The translations under genes were made by a program, and so were the position numbers. DNA of 30,018 nucleotides from a virus. Shown piece by piece: positions 22,431-25,211 of this stretch. Within the stretch, counting starts at the first letter, position 1. Each line of letters begins with the position of its first letter. Location of the stretch: IMG/VR virus record IMGVR_UViG_3300027977_000140, positions 1 through 30,018 of that record. One strand, written 5' to 3'. The notes under the pieces were generated by a model, which did no database searches, had not been told where the DNA came from, and worked only from the letters and a program-made list of their open reading frames with translations.

Positions 22431-22629
22431 CTTGCGAGACTGCCCGCGCACCGAGCGCCCTGATGTGATTGGGCTGACGGTCGGCAAGCTGGCGTCGTAT
22501 TCGGTTCAACAAGCCGCTGACTTGGAAGTGTGCAATGCGAGGCGCGCGGCGGCTGTTTCCATCATTGAGGCGGTGAATAAGGCCAATGAGCCCAAGAAGC
22601 CTTGGTGGCAGTTTTGGGGTGCTAAATGA
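22351..22629 (+). CDS. Rz1: Outer-membrane spanin lipoprotein (Rz1-like)
   Basis: Starting at ATG 22351, this 92-residue protein begins MLPTLGLLALTACATPQASL. It has a short hydrophobic signal and a lipobox LTAC with the lipidated cysteine at residue 13. The mature part is proline-containing (TIPDSLRDCPRTERPDV) and ends with aromatic WWQFWGAK. It begins inside the Rz-like gene in a different frame and continues past it, an overlapping rather than fully embedded arrangement. It would pair with the i-spanin. The frame is open from 22297, but the lipobox fixes 22351 as the sensible start. It overlaps the next gene by four bases (ATGA). Confidence 0.86.
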   Translation: MLPTLGLLALTACATPQASLTVTIPDSLRDCPRTERPDVIGLTVGKLASYSVQQAADLEVCNARRAAAVSIIEAVNKANEPKKPWWQFWGAK

Positions 22630-23819
22630 TTACCTCAATCGACGAGGTGCAAGAGGCCCGCACCGATTTTGAGGCGCTTCTCCCGTTCGCTACCGACATT
22701 GAACGCAAGCACATGGAAGCCATCTTACAATATGGCAGTGCAAGTGCGGCATCTCGTGCGCTCAACATGGCGGACACCACACTAAGCCGCGCGGTCATTC
22801 GGGTTCGCAAGCGCGCAGCCATGCAAGGCCATTCGCCCAAGCATGATATGGTTCACACGGTTCCCAATCCGTTTATCGTTCAGGGCGTCTCAACCTATTA
22901 TAACCGCGATGGTGTGGCGGCTGGGCAGTGGGTTAAATCGACGCTGGATCAAACCGCATATCAGGCCACCTTGCAGGCTATGGCTGACGGCATATCCGCG
23001 GGCATTGAACCGCGGCAACCAATCAAGCCACCAACTCAAACCGATTCTGACCTGCTGACGGTATACCCGCTTGGTGATCCACATTCGGGCCTATACGCTT
23101 GGATCAAGGAAACAGGCCAAGCGTTCGACATGGCCGAATATGAGCGGATTAATACGCTCGCCATAGACGCCATCATGGCCGGATCGCCGCGGAGTGAGAC
23201 CGCGCTCTATATTGACCTCGGCGATACAACCCACGCCAGTGACGATAAAAAGCGCACTCCTGGCAGTGGGCATTATCTCGACGTCTCAGGCCGCATTTGT
23301 GAGGCGATAGAGAGTTCATTCAAGCTAAAGGCCTATCATATCGACCGCCTGCTTGAACATCACCAGCACGTCATATTCAGGCTTAACCGCGGCAACCACG
23401 ATCCAGTTACCGCGGTGGCTATCTCTGGCATGGTTCGCGAGCGTTATCGCCTGAATGAGCGAGTGACGGTGGTTGAGCCTTATAACCCATATTGGTATTT
23501 CGAGTTTGGCAAAGTCATGATTGCGACCGCTCACGGTGACGGCGCAAAGGCTCCACAGATGGGACCGATTATGGCAACGGATCAAGCCGAAATGTGGGGC
23601 CGCACTAAGCACAGACACGCATTTCTAGGCCACGTTCACCATTGGAAGGGCGAGGGATTCCCCGGCGTCACGGTGGAGTATTTCGGCACCTTGGCCGCGC
23701 CTGACTGGTATTCGCACCATGCAGGGTATCGTTCGACGCGGGAAATCAAGTCAATCACGTTTCATCGCGAGCATGGGCGATGGGGAAGTGCCGAGCGAAA
23801 TGTGTCAGCTTTCGCCTGA
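22626..23819 (+). CDS. HTH-calcineurin-like metallophosphoesterase
   Basis: This 397-residue protein has two parts. Residues about 25-65 read like a helix-turn-helix (HMEAILQYGSASAASRALN, then TTLSRAVIRVRKRAA). From residue 140 it carries the complete calcineurin-like phosphoesterase motif set: GDPHSG (D151, H153), DLGD (D200), RGNHD (N257, H258), AHGDG (H303) and GHVHH (H336, H338). These would bind two metal ions. Related phage proteins occur late in the genomes of several lambdoid and podoviral phages, without a settled substrate. The DNA-binding segment suggests that it acts on nucleic acid or at a defined site. It overlaps Rz1 by four bases (ATGA) and is the last late gene on this strand. 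Confidence 0.88.
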   Translation: MITSIDEVQEARTDFEALLPFATDIERKHMEAILQYGSASAASRALNMADTTLSRAVIRVRKRAAMQGHSPKHDMVHTVPNPFIVQGVSTYYNRDGVAAGQWVKSTLDQTAYQATLQAMADGISAGIEPRQPIKPPTQTDSDLLTVYPLGDPHSGLYAWIKETGQAFDMAEYERINTLAIDAIMAGSPRSETALYIDLGDTTHASDDKKRTPGSGHYLDVSGRICEAIESSFKLKAYHIDRLLEHHQHVIFRLNRGNHDPVTAVAISGMVRERYRLNERVTVVEPYNPYWYFEFGKVMIATAHGDGAKAPQMGPIMATDQAEMWGRTKHRHAFLGHVHHWKGEGFPGVTVEYFGTLAAPDWYSHHAGYRSTREIKSITFHREHGRWGSAERNVSAFA

Positions 23820-23842
23820 ATTGCTAACACTAACATCCAACA

Positions 23843-23869
23843 TGTTAACAATGTCGCGCGATGTTAACA
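23843..23869. promoter_or_regulatory. Pair of TGTTAACA palindromes, operator-like
   Basis: TGTTAACA occurs at 23843-23850 and 23862-23869, the second within the perfect 10-base palindrome ATGTTAACAT (23861-23870). The centres are 19 bases apart, with TCGCGCGA, itself palindromic, between them. Two further TAACA half-sites precede them at 23825 and 23831. The spacing suits a dimeric DNA-binding protein, but no adjacent promoter is evident. Confidence 0.45.
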
Positions 23870-23908
23870 TATCAGCAGGCCAAATGAGCCATAAAAGCGG
23901 GTCATATG

Positions 23909-23930
23909 AACCCGACATTAAACCCGACAT
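23909..23930 (+). repeat. Tandem AACCCGACAT repeat
   Basis: AACCCGACAT occurs at 23909-23918 and 23921-23930, a 12-base period. The function is unknown. It lies between the GTTAAC palindromes and the minus-strand terminator. Confidence 0.6.
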
Positions 23931-23993
23931 GTTACCCTGTTCGGTAAAACTGGGATAATTTTCGTATAACTTGGCCGGAATTATCGCGAACGG

Positions 23994-24032
23994 TAAAAGC
24001 AAAAGGCACCAACCCGTGAAGGTTAGTGCCTT
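23994..24032 (-). terminator. Rho-independent terminator of the minus-strand operon
   Basis: Read on the minus strand, AAGGCAC, one unpaired base, then AACC with a 6-base loop and the complementary GGTT and GTGCCTT form an 11-bp stem with a single mismatch (24003-24032). TTTTGCTTTT follows. On the plus strand no T-run follows, so it mainly stops the leftward transcript after the 44-residue gene. Confidence 0.82.
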
Positions 24033-24036
24033 CGAT

Positions 24037-24203
24037 CAAGCCGAAACTTGGTGGGTTCCCGTGTAAACACGAGAGGGGCCTTAGCAGCATCAAGTGGACG
24101 GTGTGTCGCGATCCTATTCCGGTAACGCTCCGGCTTTGCCCTAGGGCTTGTCTCTCGACATAGGCACACCGCCCGCGCACACCATACCAAATTACGCGGG
24201 CGG
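24037..24203 (-). ncRNA. Possible structured RNA / 3' UTR element
   Basis: Several pairings crowd this stretch. CGGTGTG (24099-24105) pairs with CACACCG (24165-24171). This encloses a TGTC/GACA hairpin with a GAGA tetraloop on the minus strand (24149-24160), the palindrome GCCCTAGGGC (24138-24147) and a CCGG/CCGG hairpin (24119-24133). A 9-bp stem CCGCCCGCG/CGCGGGCGG (24169-24177 with 24195-24203) competes with the first for bases 24169-24171. I recognise no known RNA family. A tRNA was considered and rejected. Confidence 0.35.
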
Positions 24204-24205
24204 GT

Positions 24206-24340
24206 TCAAGCTACTACTAATTCTTGCGTGTCTTCCTCAGCTGCCTGACATCCGCAAGGTGCGTAGTCCTCGTTTTTATCAAACGGCCAATCGCATATGC
24301 CGTCTTCCGATCCACAATATTTGCACTCCGGTTCCATCAT
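24206..24340 (-). CDS. 44-residue cysteine-rich (zinc-ribbon-like) protein
   Basis: The minus-strand frame from ATG 24340 to TGA 24206 encodes MMEPECKYCGSEDGICDWPF and 24 further residues. C6 and C9 form CxxC, C16 follows, and C29 and C31 form CxC, so a single zinc site is plausible. The ATG overlaps the upstream gene's stop (ATGA), and AAGG lies seven bases upstream of it, both as in neighbouring genes of this operon. It is the last gene before the structured region and terminator. Small zinc-finger proteins are common among phage early genes, and its function is unknown. Confidence 0.75.
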   Translation of the reverse strand: MMEPECKYCGSEDGICDWPFDKNEDYAPCGCQAAEEDTQELVVA

Positions 24341-24594
24341 CCTTCATCCTTCTGCGCGGGGTTGGTGGCTAGCGTAAAGACACCGTAACCTTGCTTCTGC
24401 AATTCTTTCAAAAGCAAAAGCCCTTGGTCCGTTGGATCGCAGTTAAAAGTTCTGCTGGCGGCATGAAACGCTAAACCAATATTCCATGCGTCTAGGTTGT
24501 CGGGCTGCTGCTCGTATGTGTAACCACGCTGCTGCTCTGGCTCGTCATAGGCTTTACCCCATACACCAAGTTTAAGTGTTGCCTCCCGTTTCAT
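24337..24594 (-). CDS. Hypothetical early protein, 85 residues
   Basis: The frame begins MKREATLKLGVWGKAYDEPE and ends LATNPAQKDEG. The central part (LDAWNIGLAFHAASRTFNCD, then TDQGLLLLKELQKQGYGVFTL) suggests a small alpha/beta fold. Both ends overlap neighbouring genes by ATGA, so it is clearly part of the coupled minus-strand operon. No family is recognised and no membrane segment or nucleotide-binding motif is visible. Confidence 0.75.
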   Translation of the reverse strand: MKREATLKLGVWGKAYDEPEQQRGYTYEQQPDNLDAWNIGLAFHAASRTFNCDPTDQGLLLLKELQKQGYGVFTLATNPAQKDEG

Positions 24595-25211
24595 AACATT
24601 TCCTTAACTTTTCGCAGAACCTCGCCCAATCGCTCAAGCGGGGCTGGCAATGGTGGATTAGATGGCGGTGGTGGAATGGGGCGCCAGTGCGAGTAAGACT
24701 CTAGGTTCCAACCTTGATGGCACTCAGGGTGTATCTGCCCATCTTCATTAAGATGAACGACATGCGTTTCAGTCCAGCTTCTATGGCTGTTTTTAACTTG
24801 TGTGGTGACCAGAAACGAAACACCCTCCTCTTTCGGCGCAGTGCTAATATCAAACCAACGCGCATTTGCATCAGCCCAATCTAGCGCGGCGTCGTCGGCT
24901 GCTACCCATTCGTCGTAGAGGGCTTTGGAAACCGGCATCATTTCCTCGCTGTTCAATACCGCTCTTGAGCATCTTTCAATTTGCTCCACGGTGACATCCT
25001 CACAGCCATCGGCCAAACGTTTTAGGGCAATGTTCCTAACCTTTTGCAAGCACGCTCTAAGTGCCTTAATTTCAGAGGCCAAACGCTCTTGCTGTTTCGC
25101 ATGCTTTTCATGGTCGGCGGCGACGCTTTTGCTAAGGTCAACATATCGGTCATTCCAGACCTTTGCCGCAACCTCAAAGCCTTCGGGGTTCATTTTGGGT
25201 ATTTGGGTCAC
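24591..25211 (-). CDS. DUF551-containing phage protein
   Basis: This is a 206-residue protein. The N-terminal part is a coiled coil (KSVAADHEKHAKQQERLASE onward, residues about 28-65) followed by a helical linker. Residues about 119-183 carry the DUF551 pattern: WFDISTAPKEEGVSFLVTTQ, a middle strand with ETHVVHLN and a closing SHWRPIPPPP. DUF551 proteins are common accessory genes of temperate and virulent phages with no established biochemical role. ATGA overlaps connect it with both neighbours. The proline-rich stretch SNPPLPAPLERLG near the C-terminus may be a linker to a short terminal helix. Confidence 0.82.
   Translation of the reverse strand: MTQIPKMNPEGFEVAAKVWNDRYVDLSKSVAADHEKHAKQQERLASEIKALRACLQKVRNIALKRLADGCEDVTVEQIERCSRAVLNSEEMMPVSKALYDEWVAADDAALDWADANARWFDISTAPKEEGVSFLVTTQVKNSHRSWTETHVVHLNEDGQIHPECHQGWNLESYSHWRPIPPPPSNPPLPAPLERLGEVLRKVKEML

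Follow-up and report, generated by a model that had tools for sequence, protein, structure and literature searches.

We tentatively propose that the minus strand of this virus carries a lineage-specific phage small RNA (sRNA) gene of ~175-180 nt, with its own promoter and terminator, at the junction of two convergent gene sets. The DNA analysed, called the window below, is a complete virus record of 30,018 bases, with no larger genome behind the record. Its rightward genes encode terminase, a head-tail adaptor, the major head protein, tail, an internal virion protein, an endolysin, and an exonuclease, and its leftward operon includes RecT and exonuclease VIII. With up to 56% identity, the capsid resembles those of Enterobacter phage BUCT554, Escherichia phage phiV10, and their relatives; it has matches in 91 of 50,697 phage records, and we read the virus as an epsilon15/phiV10-like podovirus.

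The convergent gene sets end at 23819 (exonuclease) and 24206 (a 43-aa gene), leaving 386 bases between them, and the candidate RNA occupies ~180 bases of non-coding DNA on the minus strand inside this junction. Three named phages in which RecE/RecT and the lysis genes likewise converge have junctions of 11, 84, and 77 bases, so that the long junction here looks like added material. The part beside the exonuclease (23820-24000) aligns with the equivalent place in two relatives, L002 and L003. Since this likeness stops where the terminator starts, the RNA stretch appears to be a separate piece of the mosaic, which is what a late-added unit would show at a junction. The aligned part is non-coding and may serve as an operator, an origin, or a packaging region. 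On its plus strand, TTACC-n6-GGTAAAA, GTATAA, and TTATCGCGAACrGTAArA are common to L002 and L003. It also holds two TGTTAACA palindromes (23843-23850 and 23862-23869), 19 bases apart and with no others in the window (chance mean 0.31), which look like paired operator sites; at the equivalent place of L002, three CTGCATTTGCGTRA copies were read by eye.

On the other side of the candidate lies the end of the early operon, all on the minus strand. Its last gene (24206-24337) encodes 43 aa with four cysteines and no Pfam match, and it is preceded by an 85-aa gene (24337-24594) and a 206-aa gene (24591-25211). For the 85-aa protein, a single distant named relative was found, at 43% identity (E 0.008); in Marinobacter phage PS3 it forms part of a larger ORF, two genes ahead of the integrase. 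At its C-terminus, the 206-aa protein shows a likeness to DUF551 (E 0.055) that falls below the Pfam cut-off.

A small RNA gene of this kind is expected to end on an intrinsic terminator, and one is present at the 3′ end of the candidate. As the initial annotation had stated, it lies on the minus strand; we find a 14-pair stem (24033-24002), a 4-nt loop, and a U-rich tail running to ~23996. Taken alone it folds with a z of -6.3 (1000 shuffles), and it forms in both transcript types described below with a pair probability of 0.94-0.97. An RNA from the plus strand was also considered and dropped, since no U tail follows the stem in that orientation. The same annotation had called the whole 201-nt tail highly structured. 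In absolute energy this is correct, as the minimum free energy (MFE) of the tail is lower than that of 300 out of 300 background 201-nt windows, both strands sampled. After correction for composition, a z as low as that of the whole tail was found in 14 of these 300 windows; the z itself is -2.0 (5/200 shuffles as good) or -2.35 (18/1000). Once the terminator is removed, however, the description no longer applies: the z rises to -0.3, with 368 of 1000 shuffles folding as well, the very outcome that the annotation had listed as counting against its proposal. The RNA body minus terminator (24174-24041) gives a z of only -0.96. The high absolute structure of the tail is thus mostly due to the terminator, a 9-bp hairpin, and the GC content, and its excess stability resides mostly in the first two.

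Upstream of the terminator, two stems compete for the same bases. The 9-bp hairpin (24169-24203, arms 24203-24195 and 24177-24169) is a perfect inverted repeat, as first described, and alone it folds with a z of -3.6 (3/1000 shuffles). The long-range stem is also present and encloses three hairpins, one of them the announced GNRA-loop hairpin (GUC-GAGA-GAC), together with a further 5-bp stem (CCUAU/AUAGG). Its length had been given as 7 bp, but when upstream sequence is left out it extends to 10 bp, pairing 24174-24165 with 24096-24105. Accordingly, the overlap with the 9-bp hairpin, reported as three bases, holds for the 7-bp version and grows to six bases for the 10-bp version. The 10-bp stem, the 5-bp stem, and the three hairpins (GAGA, CUAG, and 7-nt loops) make up what we call domain 1 (24096-24174), found in the MFE structure with a pair probability of 0.99. 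It is followed by a linker (24034-24095) with a 7-bp hairpin (~24074-24057, pair probability 0.98) and a small UUCG-loop hairpin; the segment 24040-24096 folds with a z of ~0.

The 9-bp hairpin and the long stem exclude each other within one molecule, and in prediction the transcript start point determines which of them forms. In read-through RNA from the operon (e.g., starting at 24250), the 9-bp hairpin has a mean pair probability of 0.97-0.98 and the long stem at most 0.02. In RNA starting between 24178 and 24174, the long stem reaches 10 bp with a mean pair probability of 0.99, and formation of the 9-bp hairpin is excluded (pair probability 0 in the transcript from 24174). Domain 1 (24174-24096), whose boundaries were picked after the fact, has a z of -2.58 (7/500 shuffles as good), and just one of 500 shuffles joined its two ends by at least 8 pairs. 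In a slightly longer form (24176-24094), a z as low was found in 45 of 1332 windows of 83 nt. The idea that the long stem and the UCCA after it are tRNA-like was dropped as there is no T arm, and ARAGORN listed no tRNA or tmRNA gene in the window.

A promoter-like site stands precisely where such a start would require it. On the minus strand, the -35-like hexamer TTGAAC (24204-24209) overlaps the 43-aa ORF at its stop codon and is separated by a 17-base spacer from the -10-like hexamer TATGGT (24181-24186), one base ahead of which stands a TG (extended -10). The 5′ arm of the 9-bp hairpin falls within the spacer. From the spacing, transcription would be expected to start at a G, 7 bases past the -10, and the 10-bp stem begins at this very position (24174). 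Scored with an approximate sigma-70 matrix after the site had been noticed, TTGAAC-17-TATGGT ranks 4 among ~60,000 window positions. When the region was shuffled, an equally good site arose 19 times in 1000, and 16 of 1192 equal-length windows held one; leaving out the extended -10 bonus raises these figures to 72/1000 and 109/1192. Because the site was spotted before it was scored, all these statistics flatter it. A promoter scanner at its threshold of 9 of 12 listed no promoter, and the TTGAAC/TATGGT pair falls below that threshold.

By codon scores, Pfam, and tblastn, a set of tests weak for very short genes, the candidate stretch appears not to be protein coding. The ORFs crossing it score -0.23 (82 aa), -0.34 (55 aa), and 0.00 (14 aa) per codon; true genes have a mean of 0.29 with a 5th percentile of 0.10, and false frames a mean of -0.12. 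The 43-aa gene itself scores low (-0.14), which is why the codon test says little about very short genes. No Pfam match was found for the frames across the region. The longest of these ORFs, on the minus strand (24180-23932), spans the whole stretch and the terminator and stays open over 82 codons, as would be expected of a real small protein gene or the relic of one. Against this stand its codon score, no visible ribosome-binding site, no Pfam match, only tblastn hits of E at least 2 in phages, and length differences in the relatives' aligned flank that break the frame, and we consider a protein gene here highly improbable.

We then looked for relatives of the RNA. In Rfam 15, the scan proposed in the initial annotation, there was no match in the window at the gathering cut-off; the highest-ranking matches below it (E 0.016 and 0.13) cover the terminator hairpin, but on the other strand. 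Blastn found no relative of the RNA stretch in phages, plasmids, or E. coli genomes, and 4 + 20 related virus records gave only three chance matches of 14-19 bases, in 3 of the 20. Two 16-mers from the stretch had no match in a pattern search, nor did a 20-mer in genome contigs. A gapped stem pattern retrieved one locus from IMG/VR, set aside as a chance match since the sequence around it is unlike the query. A conserved 16-base motif adjoining the RNA was tried as a family marker and rejected, as its 23 stretches are about the number we would expect by chance and many seem to be coding (TVRDN/K peptide). A covariance model built from the single sequence recovered the window itself at 170 bits, as a positive control. 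Searched with it, 25 sources returned only the query, and 36 records and 22 loci returned nothing. One 10.8-bit match among five named loci, in Marinobacter phage PS3 (E 0.61), proved on inspection to be consistent with a terminator.

Neighbouring genes were used as anchors as well. Pattern searching with the 85-aa gene yielded 20 stretches, none of which was a relative, and no relatives were found for the 206-aa gene. The exonuclease led to 4 loci (0 in genome contigs), RecT to 11, and the capsid to 21; the candidate RNA was found in none of the loci retrieved through these five genes. In IMG/VR, the nearest relative by capsid (L017, 96%) is a 22.7-kb record with no match to the RNA stretch, and judging from the capsid position and the record length it probably does not extend to the RNA-bearing part of the genome. 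As a second family member was not found in any of these searches, there is no covariation to count, and the unrecognised family suggested in the initial annotation is so far a conjecture.

Possible targets were sought among 30 translation starts in the window, by a duplex method that ignores self-structure. Three starts reached at most 10 of 200 shuffles, against 1.5 expected, which gives no target evidence within the window. The best antisense target, the exonuclease start (3/200 shuffles), was one of 30 tested and was dropped. There, the RNA segment CCACCAAG...GGCUU (24058-24040, minus strand) is complementary to AAGCCUUGGUGG (22597-22608, plus strand), immediately 5′ of the start codon; this start ranked first of the 30 and is not significant after counting. 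Ten RNA bases, CACCAAGTTT (24044-24053, minus strand), could also pair without a mismatch with codons 8-11 of the 85-aa gene (24564-24573, minus strand), a kind of match of which by our own estimate about one is expected by chance in the operon.

From the sequence, the terminator, and the predicted folds, we infer how the candidate sRNA gene might work. The unit would have been added where the leftward early operon meets the rightward lysis and exonuclease genes. A host sigma-70-type promoter (24209-24181) would start a discrete RNA at ~24174, whose 5′ end would be locked at once by the 10-bp stem; by closing the three-hairpin domain, this stem may protect the RNA from 5′-end-dependent decay. 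Domain 1 would be followed by the linker, in which one hairpin is firmly predicted and a short stretch, ACCCACC, is left unpaired, and the terminator would then end the RNA. The product may act in trans as a regulator of host or phage messages, or through protein binding. Read-through RNA from the operon would end at the same terminator with its start folded into the 9-bp hairpin, so that the two transcripts would differ in domain 1. A further extension, which we regard as doubtful, is that one DNA stretch yields two RNAs by choice of start, a read-through tail capped by the 9-bp hairpin and a promoter-born sRNA, the overlap reserving the active domain for its own promoter and insulating it from read-through.

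The main competitor of the sRNA gene is an ordinary 3′ end of the early operon, in which a real terminator stops leftward transcription before the rightward genes and the rest is GC-rich filler whose hairpins arose largely by chance. We hold it to be nearly as likely. It is favored by the shuffled-level folding of the tail outside the terminator, by a GC content of 58% in the tail versus 54% in the window, by the four ORF-free gaps of at least 195 bases elsewhere in the window, and by the failure to find relatives of the stretch. It accounts less well for a promoter-like site whose position matches the start of the long stem to the base, for a 9-bp hairpin and a domain 1 that few shuffles equal, and for the much shorter junctions of the named relatives. 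The initial proposal of a phage small RNA is partly supported, by a promoter-like site with its expected start at the first base of the long stem and by the absence of a coding signal; outside the terminator, the stability of the tail does not exceed that of shuffles.

Two other explanations concern the 9-bp repeat. It could be a DNA operator straddling the -10, through which a regulator of the phage or its host would repress the promoter, or else a stable hairpin of the operon message, which we think very unlikely. The arms are suitably positioned at the spacer and the start site, but their separation of 17 bases is wide for a simple dimer site, and the window contains 24 copies of the arm motif with at most one mismatch, against a chance mean of 15.9, most of them isolated from one another. 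The switchable 3′ UTR element that had been offered as an alternative to a small RNA would have the 9-bp hairpin and the long stem exchange within one transcript upon a signal. The two stems do have 3-6 bases in common. In read-through RNA, however, the prediction strongly disfavors the long stem, no Rfam riboswitch was found in the window at the gathering cut-off, and the only thing to control downstream is a terminator that forms in both states. The predicted folds depend on the transcript start instead, and we give a signal-driven switch hardly any credence.

The sRNA reading can be compared with known phage systems, as far as excerpts of a 2025 review on sRNAs derived from phages (PMC12197685) and of a transcriptome study on Salmonella prophages (PMC7067206) cover them. 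Lambda OOP RNA is, like the predicted candidate, a short phage RNA with its own promoter; it is antisense to cII, whereas the candidate does not overlap a known regulator gene (PMC12197685). VpdS of VP882 and PreS are trans-acting phage sRNAs that act on phage and host messages, and for sRNAs of this type Hfq dependence is reported; for the candidate, such action is only proposed (PMC12197685). The ipeX sequence resembles the candidate in being sRNA sequence on a phage message, but it is part of a phage porin transcript made from the promoter of the porin gene, and a separate promoter is proposed here (PMC12197685). Prophage accessory (moron) loci share with the candidate the arrangement of an independently promoted unit beside or against lytic genes. 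Those of Salmonella prophages were found by transcriptomics, while the present unit is predicted and RNA-only (PMC7067206). We favor seeing the putative sRNA gene as the RNA equivalent of those prophage accessory units that consist of promoter, gene, and terminator.

Our literature search found no title on an sRNA of an epsilon15/phiV10-like phage. If the gene is not real, the region illustrates that a strong terminator alone can make a 200-base tail appear structured. If it is real, epsilon15/phiV10-like podoviruses would have an sRNA whose promoter and hairpin overlap, so that the origin of the transcript would set its fold.
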